A DNA stretch of 20,832 bases from a virus: IMG/VR virus record IMGVR_UViG_3300044619_002120, positions 1 through 20,832 of that record, one strand, 5' to 3'. The notes below the pieces were generated by a model. That model did not search any database. It saw nothing but the letters and a program-made list of their open reading frames with translations, and was not told where the DNA came from. This document shows positions 633 to 12,422 of the stretch, piece by piece; within the stretch, counting starts at the first letter, position 1, and each line of letters opens with the position of its first letter. A program made the translations under genes and the position numbers.

Positions 633-693
633 GTCGGTGTCTCCGTTTGCGTTGTTGATGACCTCTTCTCTCACATGCAACGCACCGTTGCAA
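633..693 (-). promoter_or_regulatory. Leftward promoter/leader, class I copy
   Basis: Read on the minus strand: TTGCAA (693-688), 7 bases, TTGCAT (680-675), then GAGAAGAGGTCATCAACAAC and CGGAGACACC before the ATG at 632. Spacing from TTGCAA to CATCARCAAC is 33 bases, identical to the rightward copy at 988. No convincing -10 hexamer sits at the usual distance, so calling it a promoter is inference from the repeated architecture. The conserved leader itself is seen directly. Confidence 0.55.
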
Positions 694-713
694 GCGATAT
701 TTTACGAAGCGCT

Positions 714-977
714 GCAGCATCTGCAGCACGACGCATCACGCTGCATCTTCAGCTTCCGGGGCTGGTCATCACACCATGGATTTTTACAGCGCAGCACAGC
801 ATCTGCTCGGTGCAGCATTTGCAGCAGTGGGGGGCACCCCCTACGGGGGTGTACCCCCTCCGTGCTGCAGAAATGCTGCATTACCCGACCTGCACCATTT
901 GCAGCATGATGCATCTTGCTGCACCGTGCTGCTAATGCTGCATGCTGCAGCATGTGTAAAAAAGTGCTCATGCTGCA
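714..977. repeat. Array of TGCWGCA repeats in the divergent control region
   Basis: Twelve exact copies of TGCWGCA lie in 264 bases. TGCAGCA starts at 714, 722, 811, 820, 900 and 946; TGCTGCA starts at 863, 874, 917, 936, 943 and 971. Several extend to TGCAGCAT/ATGCTGCA. Near-matches add to the cluster (CGCAGCA at 790, TGCTGCT at 927). All four copies left of 841 read TGCAGCA; six of eight to the right read the reverse complement, so the array is roughly mirror-symmetric around the central G/C hairpin. No gene is seen between 633 and 1049. Such a cluster could be an operator array for a repressor, or iterons of a replication origin; the sequence alone does not choose. Confidence 0.8.
829..858. 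other. Alternating G/C-tract hairpin at the centre of the divergent region
   Basis: Runs of G, C, G and C alternate here. CACCCCC (835-841), TAC, GGGGGTG (845-851) is a perfect 7-base stem with a 3-base loop. GGGGGT (845-850), GT, ACCCCC (853-858) is a competing 6-base stem using the same G run. It lies almost exactly midway between the start codons at 632 and 1050. It may be a cruciform, a transcription insulator between the two arms, or a protein-binding palindrome. Confidence 0.6.
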
Positions 978-987
978 AAAATAGGTG

Positions 988-1049
988 TTGCAACCCCACG
1001 TTGGATATGAGAGAAGAGGTCATCAGCAACGACCAACCGGAGACACCCA
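988..1049 (+). promoter_or_regulatory. Rightward promoter/leader, class I copy
   Basis: TTGCAA (988-993), 7 bases, TTGGAT (1001-1006), then GAGAAGAGGTCATCAGCAAC (1011-1030) and CGGAGACACCC before the ATG at 1050. It is an inverted, near-identical counterpart of the leader at 633-693. The GGAG at 1039-1042 is the ribosome binding site. As in the leftward copy, no standard -10 hexamer is obvious 17 bases after TTGCAA. Confidence 0.55.
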
Positions 1050-2647: not shown

Positions 2648-2760
2648 CGAGCAACAACTGGCTGGCTTTAGCTATCCTCGCCCTCGTGGGCACGGCCGCC
2701 TACATCATCATTCGGCAGCCGCCCATCACCCTCGACGACCTTGATGACACAGACTGGTAA
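2644..2760 (+). CDS. Tiny single-pass membrane protein (38 residues)
   Basis: A very short gene starting in the ATGA overlap with the gene before it. The product MTSNNWLALAILALVGTAAY... has one hydrophobic helix (about residues 6-23) and an acidic tail, PPITLDDLDDTDW. AAGGAC lies upstream as a plausible ribosome binding site. Overlap, ribosome binding site and clear membrane helix support it despite its length. Together with the 2450 gene it forms a coupled pair of small membrane proteins. Function unknown. Confidence 0.6.
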   Translation: MTSNNWLALAILALVGTAAYIIIRQPPITLDDLDDTDW

Positions 2761-2765
2761 AGATC

Positions 2766-3095
2766 ATGACATACGTGCACCCCGATCCCGAGACGACGAA
2801 GGGCGACATCGATTTCCACGTCAATCTCGATGACGTTGAGACGCTCATCAACAAAGCCGTCTCGCGGTGGCTGCGTGAGCAGCGCCTCGAAATCTACCTC
2901 ATGGACGGCCACATCGTCGTCTTCCTTGAGGACGCCTTCGCCGACAACGGCGAGCATTACACCTACCGCATACCTTACGCCGAGTTCTTTGATGAGCGTA
3001 ACGAAGAGCCGCCGGACCTTCGGGACTTTCTTCTGCTCGGTCTGAAGGTCTATCGCGAGCGGTACGGCCACGACCCCGAAGAGGATGACGCATGA
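2766..3095 (+). CDS. Hypothetical acidic protein
   Basis: A 109-residue acidic protein (MTYVHPDPETTKGDIDFHVNLDDVETLINKAV...). It starts 5 bases after the previous stop; the upstream GTAAAG is a weak ribosome binding site, so translation probably relies on coupling. The central part (LEIYLMDGHIVVFLEDAF) looks like beta strands, and the end is highly acidic (GHDPEEDDA). No domain recognised. It overlaps the next gene by ATGA. Confidence 0.7.
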   Translation: MTYVHPDPETTKGDIDFHVNLDDVETLINKAVSRWLREQRLEIYLMDGHIVVFLEDAFADNGEHYTYRIPYAEFFDERNEEPPDLRDFLLLGLKVYRERYGHDPEEDDA

Positions 3096-3535
3096 CCCGC
3101 AAACCCATCATCCACAATCGTCGCTTCTGGTGGCTGTACCCTGACGGCCGCCGCGAGCGCATCTACGCCAACGAGCGGCTCAGGAGCCAAATCTCGCAGC
3201 ACGCAGCCGTAGAGGCGCGCGTGGCCAAGGAGGAGGCACCGCCGCGTCGCACCCACAACCCGCCCCGGCCGCCCGGCACCATGCCGACGCTGCCGTCCGA
3301 CAGCCGCGACATCGGCAACCGGACGCTCAGCGAGCTGGCCCACGACTACGGCTGGGGCTCAGTGGCGCGCTGCACGGCGGCGCTCAAGGCGCAACGCCCG
3401 ACCGTCTATGAGGCTGCCCGCGCCAACGGCCGGGCGCGGGGTCGTGCTAATTTGACGCGAGAGCCATTGCAAGCCGCCATTGCATCTGTCACACTATCCT
3501 ACTCAGCCACAGGAGAGACCAATGAGCATCAGTGA
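3092..3535 (+). CDS. Hypothetical basic protein
   Basis: A 147-residue, strongly basic protein starting MTRKPIIHNRRFWWLYPDGRRERIYANERLR, coupled to the previous gene by ATGA at 3092-3095. A proline/arginine-rich linker (about residues 50-65) separates the N-terminal part from a C-terminal segment (RTLSELAHDYGWGSVARCTAALKAQRPTVYE) that could form a small helical, possibly helix-turn-helix, unit. Nucleic-acid binding is plausible from charge, but no family was recognised. The last 14 bases overlap the next gene, and its 3' end carries the candidate promoter at 3467. Confidence 0.7.
   Translation: MTRKPIIHNRRFWWLYPDGRRERIYANERLRSQISQHAAVEARVAKEEAPPRRTHNPPRPPGTMPTLPSDSRDIGNRTLSELAHDYGWGSVARCTAALKAQRPTVYEAARANGRARGRANLTREPLQAAIASVTLSYSATGETNEHQ
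3467..3521 (+). promoter_or_regulatory. Candidate promoter/leader inside the 3' end of the 3092 gene
   Basis: TTGCAA (3467-3472), 7 bases, TTGCAT (3480-3485), then TACTCAGCCAC (3500-3510) and AGGAGAGACCA before the ATG at 3522. Box spacing (13 bases start to start) and distance to the leader (33-34 bases) match the other copies at 693, 988, 6243 and 12360. The leader is the most divergent of the five. CTATCCT at 3494-3500 may serve as the -10 region. Confidence 0.45.
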
Positions 3536-3779: not shown

Positions 3780-3946
3780 TCGCCGAGGCACTCGACCTCT
3801 TCGCCCAGCGCGATCGGCTGGAGGCCGAGCTGGCTGCCGTCAATGACCGGCTGGCCAAGCTCAAATCGCAGTACATGGAGAAGACGCGCCTCTTCGGCAT
3901 TCGAGACGAGCGCTTCCGCCACGAGATCAGTAGAGAAAACGCATGA
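3776..3946 (+). CDS. Hypothetical small coiled-coil protein
   Basis: A 56-residue protein (MIAEALDLFAQRDRLEAELAAVNDRL...) starting in an ATGA overlap with the previous gene and ending in another with the next. The sequence is a single amphipathic helix with Leu/Ala heptads up to about residue 35, then a charged tail RLFGIRDERFRHEISRENA. Its position immediately before the Cro-like regulator may mean co-regulation, but no partner can be named. Confidence 0.65.
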   Translation: MIAEALDLFAQRDRLEAELAAVNDRLAKLKSQYMEKTRLFGIRDERFRHEISRENA

Positions 3947-4179
3947 CCCGCATTGACGCCATCAACCTCGCCATCAGCAAGGGCGGCGGCATCGTGCGTT
4001 TTGCCCGCAGCATGGGCGTGTCGCATCAGGCCGTGTACGCATGGAAGCGGCGCGGCTGGGTGCCGGTGGACAAGGCCGTCGTGATCGAGGGGGCTTACGG
4101 CATCCCGCGCGATGATCTGATGAGCCCTGACCTCGTCCGCGCGCTCGCCGTACCGAGTGCAAGCGCCGACCTGCTGTAA
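3943..4179 (+). CDS. Cro/YdaS-like helix-turn-helix regulator
   Basis: A 78-residue DNA-binding protein. The helix-turn-helix covers about residues 14-40 (GGIVRFARSMGVSHQAVYAWKRRGWVP), followed by DKAVVIEGAYGIPRDDLMSPDLV. This matches the pattern of YdaS/Cro-type phage repressors: short, one HTH, and a PRDDLxPDL-like end. It probably binds operator DNA as a dimer and could control the repeated promoter/leader elements or the TGCWGCA array, but no operator has been shown. It is coupled by ATGA to the preceding gene and lies directly before the primase-helicase. No CI-like partner or integrase is present, so a lysogeny switch is not supported here. Confidence 0.8.
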   Translation: MTRIDAINLAISKGGGIVRFARSMGVSHQAVYAWKRRGWVPVDKAVVIEGAYGIPRDDLMSPDLVRALAVPSASADLL

Positions 4180-4200: not shown

Positions 4201-6237
4201 ATGGCGAGCGTCAGGGCGATTGCGCCCAAAATCCGCGCCCTTGAGGTGCCGGAGGAACTGCGGATGGTGCCGGCATGGCTCATCTGGCGCTTCGAACAAT
4301 ACCCCAACGAATCCAAGCCGCGCAAAGTCCCGTACTGGACCGACGGCACGATCCGCCACGGTCAGCAGGGTTCACCGACCGACCGCGCACGCCTGACCAC
4401 GTTCCCCGCAGCGCGCGATGCGGCTGCGCGCATGGGCTATGACGGCGTGGGCTTCGCCCCGATGCCAGACTTCGGCTACACGTTTCTGGACTTTGACAAC
4501 TGCGTTGGCCCGAGCGGCGAGATACCCACTGAGATCGAGCAGATCGTCGCCCGGACGTATGCCGAGTTCAGCCCATCGGGTAAAGGCATCCGCGCCGCGT
4601 TGAAGGGCAATCTGGGCAACCACAAGAGCAAGGCAGCGCCCGACCGCTACGGCTTTGAGACGTTCTCTACGTCAATGTTCGTGACGTTCACGGGCAACAT
4701 CCTCCCCGCCTGCGAGATGATCGGTCTTGAGAACACGGTGGCCGAGGTGGACCAGCACGTCATCGACCTGTGCGAGCGCCGCTTCGGTGGCTCCCTCACC
4801 AACAACGTCGTTGACCCCGACGACTTCATGGCCGGCCGCGAGCCTCGGCTGGGCCTGACGATCAACGAGATGGAGGCGCTGGTCAACAGCCTCGACCCGA
4901 GCATGGGTCGCGCGGACTGGATCCGCGTCGGCATGGCGCTGAAGCATGAGACGGACGGCGGTGACGACGGCTTCGAAATCTGGGACGAGTGGTCACAGGA
5001 CGGGGACACGTACCCCGGCACCGAGGCTCTGCGCTACCAGTGGGAGAGCTTCCGAGCTGCACCGGGCAAGCGGCAGACTACCATGGCCTCGGTGATCAAG
5101 ATGGCGAAGGACGCCCAGAGCCGCCCTAGCTCGGCGGCGAGCGTGGCCGAGGCGGCCGACGCACTCGTCGCTGATCTGGATGCACCCGAGGGCGTGCACA
5201 CGCCACCCGGCTACACCGGCAAGTTCCCTGTCCTGTCGGCCGACGAGATCAGCTCGCAGAGGCCGACAGACTGGCTGATCAAGGGCGTACTCCCAGCCGC
5301 CGACATCATCACGATCTACGGCGCGTCTGGCTCAGGCAAGAGCTTCGTCGTCCTTGATCTAGCCGCCGCTATCGCCACCGGCGCGCCGTGGCGCGGCTGC
5401 AAGGCGCGCAAGGGCCGCGTGGTCATCATCGCCGCCGAGGGCGCGGGCGGCTACGGCAAACGCATCAAGGCGCTGGCGCAGCACCGGGGCATCCCGTTGG
5501 CCGATCTCGACATTGGCGTGATCGTCGTGCCGCCCAACCTCATGGAGGAGGGCGACGTGACTGAACTGGCCGCGTCGATCAAGGCCGTGGGGGACGTGTC
5601 GTTTGTCGTGGTGGATACATTCGCGCAGGTGACGCCGGGAGCCAATGAAAACACGGGCGAAGACATGGGCCGCGCTCTGGCCAACGTGCGCGTACTGAGC
5701 GACGTGACGGACGCAACGGTCGGTCTCGTACACCACTCAGGCAAAGACGCCAGCAAAGGCGCTCGCGGCTGGTCGGGCATCAAGGCCGCCATGGACGCCG
5801 AGATTGAGATCACGCGCGATGAGAACACGGGCGCACGCGCCATCCGGCTGAGCAAGATGAAAGACGGCGAGGATGGAACGACATGGGGCTTTAAGCTGGA
5901 GACGATCCTGCTCGGCCTCGACGACGACGGTGACGACATCACGAGCTGCGTTGCGGTCGAGGATGACGTGCGCCCGGCGGCTGTTGAGGACAAGAAAAAC
6001 GTGAAGCGTCGCGGCCGCCTTGAGACCCACCTGCTGGAGGTAATGGCGACATTCCCGACGGATGCAATTGTTCGCGCGGAGGACCTGATCCGCAAGGCTT
6101 GCGATATGTTACCAGCGCCCGATGCAGGCAAACGTGACATCCGCCGCCAGTCAGTTGTCCGGGCAATTCAGAACCTTAGCAGGGAGAAGGACGGCCCACT
6201 GCGGATGGAAAACGGGATCGTAATTTTTTACGAATAG
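4201..6237 (+). CDS. Primase-polymerase / RepA-like helicase
   Basis: A 678-residue multidomain replication protein. The ATG at 4201 is preferred over an in-frame GTG at 4186, because GGAGG at 4188-4192 is then the ribosome binding site. N-terminal part: primase-polymerase-like, with an acidic motif FLDFDN (95-100) and EFSPSGKGIR (122-131). Middle (about 220-295): a PriCT-2-like helical domain (ADWIRVGMALKHE...WDEWSQ). C-terminal: RecA-type ATPase of the RepA helicase family with Walker A GASGSGKS (374-381), Walker B FVVVDTF (about 466-472) and LVHHSGKDASKGARGWSG. It should make primers and unwind DNA at the phage fork. Several similar phage proteins fuse these activities. A separate primase or DnaB-type helicase is not seen in the window. 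Confidence 0.9.
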   Translation: MASVRAIAPKIRALEVPEELRMVPAWLIWRFEQYPNESKPRKVPYWTDGTIRHGQQGSPTDRARLTTFPAARDAAARMGYDGVGFAPMPDFGYTFLDFDNCVGPSGEIPTEIEQIVARTYAEFSPSGKGIRAALKGNLGNHKSKAAPDRYGFETFSTSMFVTFTGNILPACEMIGLENTVAEVDQHVIDLCERRFGGSLTNNVVDPDDFMAGREPRLGLTINEMEALVNSLDPSMGRADWIRVGMALKHETDGGDDGFEIWDEWSQDGDTYPGTEALRYQWESFRAAPGKRQTTMASVIKMAKDAQSRPSSAASVAEAADALVADLDAPEGVHTPPGYTGKFPVLSADEISSQRPTDWLIKGVLPAADIITIYGASGSGKSFVVLDLAAAIATGAPWRGCKARKGRVVIIAAEGAGGYGKRIKALAQHRGIPLADLDIGVIVVPPNLMEEGDVTELAASIKAVGDVSFVVVDTFAQVTPGANENTGEDMGRALANVRVLSDVTDATVGLVHHSGKDASKGARGWSGIKAAMDAEIEITRDENTGARAIRLSKMKDGEDGTTWGFKLETILLGLDDDGDDITSCVAVEDDVRPAAVEDKKNVKRRGRLETHLLEVMATFPTDAIVRAEDLIRKACDMLPAPDAGKRDIRRQSVVRAIQNLSREKDGPLRMENGIVIFYE

Positions 6238-8614: not shown

Positions 8615-9193
8615 ATGACTGCTAAGACACAAATCCGCATCAAGAACGTCACCTTGTCGTTCCCTGCGATTGCTGAGCCGAAGGCCTTTGGGGAGAATAC
8701 CCCCGCCTACGGCGCGAAGTTTGCCATCAAGCCGGGCAGCGAACAGCAGAAGGCCATCGAGGCTGCTATGCTGAAAGTTGCCAAGGAAGAGTGGAAAGAC
8801 GAGGGCGAGAGCATCCTGAACAGGCTTATCGAGGACGGCAAGGTCGCCTTTGTGAAGAAGGTTTACCGAAAGAAGACGGGCGAGGTTTACGCAGGCTTTG
8901 AGGGCATGCACTACCTGTCTACTCGGAACGCCAAGACACAGCCGACTGTGTATGATCGGCGCAACGAAGAGGTCTTGGGCAAGAGTGCAATTGAGCAGCA
9001 GGCTCACAGCGGTGCCGTTGTCACAGCCTCGCTTGACGTATGGGCGCAGGACAATAAGTGGGGCCGGCGCATCAACTGCTCGCTGCGCGGCATTATGCTG
9101 ACTGGCGAGGGTGAGAACTTCAGCGGCTCAACCCCGGCATCCGCCAATGATTTTGCTGACTTGGCCGCTCTCGACGCGGACGACTTCCTGTGA
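8615..9193 (+). CDS. DUF2815 family single-stranded DNA-binding protein
   Basis: A 192-residue protein (MTAKTQIRIKNVTLSFPAIAEPKAFG...) matching the DUF2815 pattern: an early strand IRIKNVTLSFPAI, then AYGAKFAIKPGSEQQKAIEAAM, a central GMHYLSTRNAKTQPTVYDR, and an acidic end DFADLAALDADDFL. An acidic C-terminal tail is typical of single-strand binding proteins, where it recruits partners such as polymerase or helicase. It should coat phage DNA at the fork. The ribosome binding site is AGAGGATAA, 6-7 bases from the ATG. It overlaps the next gene by GTGA. Codon choice is less GC-biased than in its neighbours. Confidence 0.85.
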   Translation: MTAKTQIRIKNVTLSFPAIAEPKAFGENTPAYGAKFAIKPGSEQQKAIEAAMLKVAKEEWKDEGESILNRLIEDGKVAFVKKVYRKKTGEVYAGFEGMHYLSTRNAKTQPTVYDRRNEEVLGKSAIEQQAHSGAVVTASLDVWAQDNKWGRRINCSLRGIMLTGEGENFSGSTPASANDFADLAALDADDFL

Positions 9194-9444
9194 GCGGGGA
9201 GGGCCACAACAGCGCAGGCGAGCAACTGCGCCTCCTGATCGAGCGCATCGAGACGCTCGAAGAGGAGAAGAAGGGCGTCGCGGGTGACATCAAGGACATA
9301 TACACCGAGGCCAAGGCCCGTGGGTATGATGGCAAGATACTTCGCGAGATCGTCCGCATCCGCAAGATGGCTCAAGACGACAGGGATGAGCACTTCGCCG
9401 TGCTCAGCACCTACGCCAAGGCTATTGGCATGGACCTCCTGTAG
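9190..9444 (+). CDS. GapR-like DUF2312 protein
   Basis: An 84-residue protein starting at a GTG within a GTGA overlap (MSGEGHNSAGEQLRLLIERIETLEEEKKGV...). It has the DUF2312 signature: GEGHNS at the start, a helix rich in EEEK, DIKDIYTEAKARGYDGKILREIVRIRK and a C-terminal helix. In Caulobacter the family member GapR is an essential chromosome-associated protein that binds overtwisted DNA ahead of forks and stimulates topoisomerases. A phage copy may relieve supercoiling during phage replication, or interfere with host GapR. The family is largely alphaproteobacterial, which supports the host assignment. Confidence 0.9.
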   Translation: MSGEGHNSAGEQLRLLIERIETLEEEKKGVAGDIKDIYTEAKARGYDGKILREIVRIRKMAQDDRDEHFAVLSTYAKAIGMDLL

Positions 9445-9582: not shown

Positions 9583-11541
9583 ATGAGCACACTGTACCTC
9601 GATCTCGAAACATTCTGCGAAACCAAGATCACCTACGGCGCGTACCGCTATGCGGAGGACGCCGAGGTGCTGTTGGTGGCGTGGGCGTGGGACGACGAGC
9701 CCGTTAGCGTCTGGGACACGCAGGACATGCCGCGCTGGCGTGATGCGCTCCAGATGATGATCGACACCGCAGATCGCATCGTGATCCACAACAGCAACTT
9801 CGACCGCACCGTCCTGCGCGAGCAGCGCGTCCACATCCCCGTGGAGAAGATCGCCGACACCATGGTGCTGGCCCTGCAGCACAGCCTGCCCGGCTCGCTG
9901 GGCCAGCTCTGCGACGTGCTGCACGTGCCGCAGGACAAAGCTAAAGACAAAGCCGGCAAGAAGCTGATACACCTGTTTACGAAGCCAAGGGCCAGCAACG
10001 TGAAGGTACGGAGAGCCACCCGTGACACACACCCCGCCGAGTGGGATGCCTTCGTCGAATACGCCCGGCTGGATGTGGACGCAATGCGAGACGTACTTGG
10101 ACGACTGCCGCCTTGGAACAATTGTGATCATGAGCGGCACCTGTGGCGGTGTGACCAAGGAATTAACGACCGTGGCGTTGCCGTGGATACTGTTTTCGCC
10201 CGAGCTGCTCTTCGAGCTTTCGACCGAGCTGGACGATCTCTGGCCACTCGTGCCTCCGCTCTGACGGGCGGCAGCGTCACGTCCGCCACGCAGCGCCAGC
10301 GCCTGCTCGACCACCTCAAGGACGCTCACGGCTTCGAGACCGAGGACCTGACGCGCGCCACGCTCGGCAACCTGCTCGGCGGTGACCTCGATCCGCAGGT
10401 GCGCGAGCTGCTGGAGATACGGCAGCAGGCTGCCGCCACGAGCCCGGCCAAGTACAGCGTGCTGCTCAACGCCACGAACCGAGACGGCCGCCTGCGCGGC
10501 CTGATCCAGTTCTGCGGCGCGGCGCGCACTGGGCGCGATGCCGGCCGCCTGTTCCAGCCGCAGAACCTGCCGCGCAGCCCCGACTGGTTCGACGATGACG
10601 TGCAGGCGATCACGGTCGCGGCCATGAAGGCGGACTGTGAGCACCTGATTTGGGACAACATCAGCGAGCGCTGCGCGTTCGCCGTGCGCGGGGCGCTGGT
10701 CGCCCCTGAGGGCAAGAAGCTGGTCATCGCCGACCTGTCCAACATTGAGGGGCGCGTCTTGGCGTGGCTGGCCGGCGAGGACTGGAAGGTCGCGGCGTTC
10801 AAGGCCTATGACCGGGGCGAGGGGCACGACCTGTACAAGGTCACCGCCGGCCGCATCCTCGGCAAGGACCCCGGCGACATCACCAAGGCCGAGCGGCAAC
10901 TGCAGGGTAAGGTGCCCGAGTTGGCCGGCGGCTATCAGGGCGGCGTGGGCGCATACCGGGTGATGGGCGGGAAGGTGTTCGACGCGATGACGGACGAGGC
11001 CATCCAAGAAATCGTCTCGGCGTGGCGCAAGGCGCACCCGCGCACGCGCAACCTGTGGTACGACATGGAGGCGGCCGCGCGGTCAGCCATCAACAATCTG
11101 GGCGAGAGCTTCGGCGACCGGATCATATTCGACGTGAAGCCCGACGCGCAGGGCATCGCGTGGCTGCGGATGAAGCTGCCGAGTGGCCGCTACCTGTGCT
11201 ACCCGCGCCCGGAGGTGTCGGACAGCGGCAGCCTGAGCTACGAGGGCATCAACCAGTACACGCGCAAGTGGCAGCGCCTCGACACCTACGGCGGCAAGCT
11301 GGTCGAGAATGCCGTGCAGGCCATCGCCCGCGACGTGTTCATGTCCGGCATGCTGCGCGCCGAGGAGGCCGGCTACAGCGTCTGCATTCGCGTGCACGAC
11401 GAGCTGGTCTGCGAGACGCCGGACGAGCCGGCCTACACCAGCGAGGGGCTGGCCGCGCTCATGTCCACCAATCCGGGCTGGTCGGTCGGCCTGCCGCTTG
11501 CCGCCGCCGGGTTCGAGGCGTACCGTTACCGCAAGGACTGA
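9583..11541 (+). CDS. Family A DNA polymerase with 3'-5' exonuclease
   Basis: A 652-residue phage-type polymerase. The exonuclease domain has motif I DLET (D7, E9), motif II NSNFD (D74) and motif III Y160-x3-D164 (YARLD). The polymerase domain has motif A DLSNIEGR (D384, E389), an O-helix-like motif B with R438, K443 and Y451 (ERQLQGKVPELAGGYQGG), and motif C HDE (605-607). All key residues are present, so it should be a proofreading replicative enzyme. No 5'-3' exonuclease domain is present, as is usual in phage versions. The ATG at 9583 follows GAGGA. Expression may be controlled by the hairpin at 9496-9577. Confidence 0.95.
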   Translation: MSTLYLDLETFCETKITYGAYRYAEDAEVLLVAWAWDDEPVSVWDTQDMPRWRDALQMMIDTADRIVIHNSNFDRTVLREQRVHIPVEKIADTMVLALQHSLPGSLGQLCDVLHVPQDKAKDKAGKKLIHLFTKPRASNVKVRRATRDTHPAEWDAFVEYARLDVDAMRDVLGRLPPWNNCDHERHLWRCDQGINDRGVAVDTVFARAALRAFDRAGRSLATRASALTGGSVTSATQRQRLLDHLKDAHGFETEDLTRATLGNLLGGDLDPQVRELLEIRQQAAATSPAKYSVLLNATNRDGRLRGLIQFCGAARTGRDAGRLFQPQNLPRSPDWFDDDVQAITVAAMKADCEHLIWDNISERCAFAVRGALVAPEGKKLVIADLSNIEGRVLAWLAGEDWKVAAFKAYDRGEGHDLYKVTAGRILGKDPGDITKAERQLQGKVPELAGGYQGGVGAYRVMGGKVFDAMTDEAIQEIVSAWRKAHPRTRNLWYDMEAAARSAINNLGESFGDRIIFDVKPDAQGIAWLRMKLPSGRYLCYPRPEVSDSGSLSYEGINQYTRKWQRLDTYGGKLVENAVQAIARDVFMSGMLRAEEAGYSVCIRVHDELVCETPDEPAYTSEGLAALMSTNPGWSVGLPLAAAGFEAYRYRKD

Positions 11542-12079: not shown

Positions 12080-12372
12080 CGCCCGCAGGCAAGCTGCAGG
12101 AGCACCTGAAGCGCGTCGTCCAGAAGAGTGGCGGGCAATACCGCAAGGCGCGCTGGGAAGGCCGCAGGGGCTGCCCTGACTGCTTCATCTGGTGGGAGTG
12201 GCCGCGCGCCGCCTTCATCGAGATCAAGGCCGACGGCGACCGGCTCAGCGGCCACCAGCAGCGCGAGATCGAGCGCATGCGCGGCGACGGCGTCCCGGTC
12301 TTCATCGCCCGTTCGATTGAGGAGATCGACGAGATTGTAAAAAAAGTTCGGGAGGGGGGTTGCAATGCCTGA
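12076..12372 (+). CDS. VRR-NUC domain nuclease
   Basis: A 98-residue protein matching the small phage VRR-NUC type of PD-(D/E)XK nuclease. Key residues: E9 in the first helix, GCPD (32-35, catalytic D35), E49-I50-K51 (IEIK) and Q61 (SGHQQ), then DGVPVFIARSIEEIDEIV. The GTG at 12076 within a GTGA overlap, with GAGGAG just upstream, is preferred to a GTG at 12058. Related proteins cut branched or flap DNA and usually lie between polymerase and SNF2-type helicase genes, as here. Its 3' end overlaps the promoter at 12360. Confidence 0.88.
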   Translation: MTPAGKLQEHLKRVVQKSGGQYRKARWEGRRGCPDCFIWWEWPRAAFIEIKADGDRLSGHQQREIERMRGDGVPVFIARSIEEIDEIVKKVREGGCNA

Positions 12373-12422
12373 TTGCATGCGCCATATGCTGTGTATCAGC
12401 AACGCAAACAGGAGTTACCCAA
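12360..12422 (+). promoter_or_regulatory. Promoter/leader, class II copy
   Basis: TTGCAA (12360-12365), 17 bases, CATATG (12383-12388), then GTGTATCAGCAAC (12391-12403), CAGGAGTTACCCA and the ATG at 12423. TTGCAT at 12373 forms the second box, 13 bases from the first. Apart from the 17-base spacer it is nearly the same as the element at 6243, including a preceding A-run and GGGGGG. It starts inside the end of the VRR-NUC gene. Confidence 0.7.

Follow-up and report, generated by a model that had tools for sequence, protein, structure and literature searches.

TGCWGCA repeats mirrored around a bulged hairpin: a possible replication origin in phages related to Caulobacter phages

The DNA analysed here is the 20,832-bp virus record IMGVR_UViG_3300044619_002120 (its whole length is called the window below), a phage fragment with linear ends. 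Close to its left end, a cluster of short TGCWGCA repeats lies between two divergent leaders, and in the window and its five longest relatives this place is the divergent junction between a replication arm and a terminase/structural arm. The features are collected in Table 1; the GapR-like protein among them is phage-encoded. Relatives were collected by scanning viral contigs in IMG/VR, where the central pattern of the array was found in 46 stretches and its left core in 55, and the alignment of the array comprises ~30 distinct sequences. Several contigs have two names (L122 is G003, L126 is G009, L129 is G004, L116 is G001 and L120 is G002); L131 is Caulobacter phage RW (MK929790), L154 is PotUPM1, and L078 is given together with G004. 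G002 and G003 repeat their first ~127 bases at or near the end, which fits a circular assembly, and the ends of G001 share a longer, imperfect overlap. The group consists of Caulobacter-phage-related phages, mostly metagenomic, which are apparently virulent. An integrase search that was positive in 14/14 control genomes found none in nine relatives, and no close prophage was found in the GTDB genomes scanned, so that a lysogeny switch is less likely.

Table 1. Features of the array region and the replication arm in the window.
Feature	Position	Strand	Basis
Left leader; promoter-like TTGCAA-N7-TTGCAT at 675-693	650-703	-	mirror comparison, motif scan
TGCWGCA array, 12 sites	713-977		motif count and shuffles; kept in relatives
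Left core, CAGCGCAGCACAGCATCTGCTCGG then TGCAGCATTTGCAGCA, adjoins hairpin	787-826		alignment of relatives
Central hairpin; outer stem 829-833/854-858, inner stem 834-841/845-852	829-858	+	folding, hairpin scan
Right core, TGCTGCANAAATGCTGCATT...CTGCACCATTTGCAGCA, mirrors left pair	863-906		conserved in relatives
A/T-rich stretch between array and right leader; candidate unwinding element	953-987		base composition
Right leader, mirror of left; TTGCAA-N7-TTGGAT at 988-1006	978-1031	+	mirror comparison, motif scan
Cro/YdaS-like HTH protein, just upstream of primase-helicase; candidate array binder/regulator	3943-4179	+	homology
Primase-helicase: fusion of PrimPol, PriCT_2 and RSF1010-RepA-type helicase; candidate initiator, helicase, primase	4201-6237	+	homology, fold
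C-terminal domain of primase-helicase, predicted winged helix	5986-6237	+	AF2 mean pLDDT 84; H-E-H-H-E-E
Enc34-type SSB	8615-9193	+	homology; conserved
GapR-like DNA-binding protein, beside SSB and PolA	9190-9444	+	homology; conserved
DNA polymerase A family (PolA)	9583-11541	+	homology; conserved

An earlier note on this DNA had described a dense, local array of twelve repeats at 714-977, between divergent leaders, and all of this holds, except that the first base is 713, one base earlier. The sites start at 713, 722, 811, 820, 863, 874, 900, 917, 936, 943, 946 and 971. This iteron cluster is far beyond chance. Of 16 copies of TGCWGCA in the window only four lie elsewhere; dinucleotide shuffles of the whole window contain on average 5.0 copies (maximum 10), and shuffles of the 265-bp segment contain on average 0.96 (maximum 6 in 5000), with none reaching twelve. 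The note had also proposed counting the motif genome-wide and in relatives. The array is again the densest TGCWGCA cluster in five relatives (54-60 kb), where the next densest 265-bp stretch has 2-3 copies. The motif is thus infrequent outside the array in the window and in these five genomes, and the array is kept in the ~30 distinct IMG/VR sequences, so that neither outcome named in the note as refuting it occurred. A cluster of short repeats kept among relatives is what is expected of an iteron origin. The segment looks non-coding, as the note had it: indels that vary widely in length distinguish the relatives there.

Within the conserved element, which is 250-330 bp in size, the core CAGCATCTGCTCGGTGCAGCATTTGCAGCA, hairpin, TGCTGCANAAATGCTGCATT...CTGCACCATTTGCAGCA is nearly invariant in the ~30 aligned sequences. 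This constancy contrasts with the primase-helicase, which has an identity of 70-80%, and with the genes next to the array, which differ. The small terminase subunit (terS), encoded to the left of the array, is replaced by sequence-unrelated proteins in the otherwise similar G003, G009, G004, G001 and G002.

The array is mirrored, as the earlier note had claimed: TGCAGCA is found at 713, 722, 811, 820, 900 and 946 and TGCTGCA at the remaining six sites, so that all four left copies read one way and six of the eight right copies the other. TGC-W-GCA is near-palindromic and the orientation of a site therefore hangs on one base. Stronger evidence for the mirror comes from the long inverted arms 713-747/908-942 and from the two leaders, which are mirrored and 80% complementary. 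Each leader contains a copy of TTGCAA-N7-TTGNAT, and the window has two more, at 3467-3485 and 12360-12378, while 100 shuffles contain none. Among relatives there are 61 distinct copies, 98% of them with an A 24 bases downstream. The motif looks like a phage-wide promoter element. It does not need the array, since the copies at 3467 and 12360 have no TGCWGCA nearby. In some relatives the left leader is lost while the array core is kept. A sigma-70 scan gave nothing usable and found no promoter-like site within the segment.

The earlier note had the layout of the array right but missed the hairpin at its centre. This G/C-rich hairpin lies between the mirrored repeat pairs and has a 5-bp outer stem, an 8-bp inner stem, the loop TAC (842-844) and a one-base bulge, A853, on its 3' side. 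Inner stems in relatives can be entirely different: the window has GCACCCCC/GGGGGTGT, L155 has TACCCC/GGGGTA, L088 has CCTTCT/AGAAGG and L035 has ATAAAC/GTTTAT, and the alternative stems of relatives include GGGGTACCCCTAAAGGGGTAACCCC, GGGGGCCTTCTTTTAGAAGGCTCCCCC and AGGGTATAAACGTAGTTTATAACCCT. These versions have no sequence kinship, yet each is fully paired. In four hairpin versions, read on the strand towards the replication arm, the 3' side is one base longer; the preferred alignment puts this single base at the same place, while RNAfold favours a G-T pair over the bulge in some variants of the third type. Pairs were counted in an alignment made by hand, because MAFFT misaligns the unrelated stems. 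In this alignment of five versions 30/30 inner cells pair, and among the 120 permutations only the true pairing achieves this. The alignments thus suggest a hairpin that is conserved in shape and not in inner-stem sequence, and the changes on both sides of the stem point to a structure that is read as a single strand. A short hairpin kept in structure beside iterons is also what would be expected of an RSF1010-type ssi priming hairpin.

It is worth adding that a hairpin with a one-base bulge is no rarity genome-wide (on each side about 4 per 57 kb), and what counts here is therefore its place and conservation. In L078/G004 an ORF has been inserted in place of the centre, and after it comes a new palindrome, flanked by TGC repeats, whose bulge is on the other side. 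The ORF inserted into the array (L078/L129, G004 44,480-45,058) encodes 192 aa and has no Pfam or PHROG match. The motif GTGG, known as a primase start from NrS-1, occurs at the hairpin base but is not invariant; it was not used as evidence because it is absent in L089 and L093.

An A/T-rich region adjoins the repeats, as in iteron origins. The stretch next to the right leader is 63% A+T, whereas the window as a whole has 36%. In relatives, the 36 nt to the left of the right-hand TTGCAA box have a mean of 67% A+T over 47 regions (background 38%), and 0.15% of background windows of this length reach that value. The GC skew, which the earlier note had proposed for mapping the replication start, does not support the array: the minimum of the detrended cumulative skew is 22-29 kb away in five genomes, although skew may follow transcription instead. 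The corresponding peak is 7.3-8.3 kb from the array in 5/5 relatives, in at least G001 and G003 on the late-arm side. Neither a DnaA box nor an IHF site was found in the array; RSF1010-type origins are not known to need DnaA.

Both sequence profile and fold match the 678-aa primase-helicase of the replication arm to NrS-1-like PrimPol and to RSF1010 RepA. The helicase part belongs with the RepA-family hexameric helicases (profile match 9.5e-7; Foldseek TMt 0.66). The full-length model is moderate (mean pLDDT 66). The last 83 residues form the predicted winged helix, which matches many winged helices at Z about 8, and such matches indicate fold only, not function. The replication genes are present wherever the array is, provided that the contig reaches them. 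Phage RW keeps the module and has no TGCWGCA iterons. The recognition-helix core of the Cro-like protein, HQAVY, is identical in this array-less phage, so the protein is not a distinguishing partner of the array.

The earlier note had left the choice between an operator for both arms and an iteron origin. The evidence now leans to an origin, because the hairpin is kept in structure, the flank is A/T-rich, the replication module is conserved together with the array and no integrase was found. The promoter-like copies at 3467 and 12360, with no TGCWGCA nearby, weaken a pure operator. We give about an even chance to the reading that the iteron-plus-hairpin element is the phage replication origin. 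A phage protein would bind the TGCWGCA iterons to the left and right of the hairpin; the best candidate is the C-terminal winged helix of the primase-helicase, and the alternative is the Cro-like protein. The A/T-rich flank would then melt and the RepA-type helicase domain would load, and the exposed hairpin, kept in shape, may mark the place where PrimPol primes, in the manner of the RSF1010 ssi hairpins. Against an origin stand the position of the GC skew minimum, the absence of DnaA boxes and IHF sites from the array, the RW module that does without TGCWGCA iterons, and L078/G004, where the centre is taken up by the inserted gene and a different palindrome with the bulge on the opposite side.

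Parts of such a system are known from elsewhere. In RSF1010, iterons are followed by unwinding by RepA and then by priming at short stem-loops; in pRN1, a stem-loop origin is combined with a PrimPol-helicase-winged-helix protein; and in phage P4 the alpha protein, which acts at repeats, joins primase, helicase and a C-terminal winged-helix origin-binding domain, its primase being of the Toprim type (PMC4234260). The region studied here resembles RSF1010 oriV (RepC iterons, RepA helicase, RepB' primase) in its iterons, A/T-rich stretch and short hairpin, and in pairing a RepA-family helicase (1g8y/1nlf) with a primase. Here, however, the very short 7-bp sites are arranged as mirror images with a single bulged hairpin in the middle, the helicase is fused to the primase, and no RepC homologue was seen; the iterons of RSF1010 are direct and longer, and the plasmid has two ssi sites. 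The likeness to P4 ori/alpha lies in the repeats and in one protein with primase, helicase and predicted C-terminal winged helix, whereas the domains here are PrimPol and RepA-type instead of Toprim-type, binding by the winged helix is putative, and there is no sequence match to P4. As in pRN1 (BIP-1), a stem-loop is kept in structure and not in sequence and the protein layout is analogous, but the ~100-nt stem-loop of pRN1 lies downstream of rep, with no iterons and an SF3 helicase, whereas here iterons and a 30-nt hairpin lie at a divergent junction. In RW, the divergent region is at the same place on the map, a hairpin is flanked on either side by TTGCAA...TTGCA leader boxes, and the replication module is homologous. 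It differs in lacking the TGCWGCA array, and its hairpin is unrelated in sequence, has a weaker outer stem and was missed by the strict scan. The published end of RW (position 2940) lies in this divergent non-coding region (2721-3217), beside the hairpin, and GTTTTGGCACT...TGCC-TAA is present there twice. BLAST of the array gave no plasmid match and, among phages, one short match to the O-like gene of PotUPM1, which has C/GCA-rich repeats of its own; this was judged to be low-complexity convergence. That gene (4481-5344 in this Pseudomonas phage) has CCCCCGCA/GCTGCA repeats inside it, which may be the phage's own origin.

An unlikely alternative to an origin is that the array is a multi-site operator or enhancer-like hub, where a phage DNA-binding protein on TGCWGCA switches both divergent promoters and the hairpin or cruciform is part of the architecture. 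The array sits exactly between the two mirrored promoter-like leaders, near-palindromic TGC-W-GCA is the type of site used by dimeric regulators, and the Cro-like protein is conserved. An operator should, however, accompany each promoter-like copy, and no TGCWGCA is near those at 3467 and 12360. RW, which lacks the array, has the same HQAVY helix core, some relatives keep the array core despite the loss of the left leader, and an operator does not explain a stem kept by two-sided changes with a one-sided bulge.

It is improbable that the terminase recognises the array, near as it is to terS, as a site of packaging or as a genome terminus (pac/cos or a concatemer junction). The published end of RW, with its 2,940-bp terminal repeat, lies in the corresponding divergent region, six bases beyond the inner stem of the hairpin, but the RW ends may be an assembly choice, and in SR18 the annotated repeat ends inside terS instead. 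None of 55 contigs stops at the hairpin, though a terminal-repeat genome need not. A packaging site should be conserved together with the small terminase subunit, and here terS is swapped while the core is kept, with no visible homology among the terS of near-identical array cores (window/G003, G009/G004/G001, G002), which disfavours recognition by the terminase.

It is just as improbable that the segment encodes an RNA, be it a structured non-coding one, a leader or a terminator. Its folding is very stable (z about -7 and -6 on the two strands), and both-sided changes with a one-sided bulge suit a single-stranded molecule. Short inverted repeats by themselves lower the folding energy, however, the leaders point outwards with no promoter-like site found inside the segment, and an Rfam search gave no family at gathering score. 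As there is no T-run after the hairpin, it is not an intrinsic terminator. A partition centromere (parC/parS-like) is very improbable: clustered short repeats flanking promoters do occur in par systems, but the window proteins scanned include no ParA, ParM or ParB homologue and there is no sign of a lysogenic or plasmid state.

Returning to the reading as a replication origin, a more tentative proposal is that it would represent an origin class, with short near-palindromic iterons mirrored round a bulged hairpin held in shape, and a single protein that combines initiator (the winged helix), RepA-type helicase and PrimPol. If true, this would provide an origin for an apparently virulent group of Caulobacter-phage-related phages, and it would unite iterons, priming hairpins and PrimPol-helicase-winged-helix proteins, which are known separately, in one compact system. 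The swaps of the hairpin for unrelated stems would then be a natural experiment showing which features a priming site needs.
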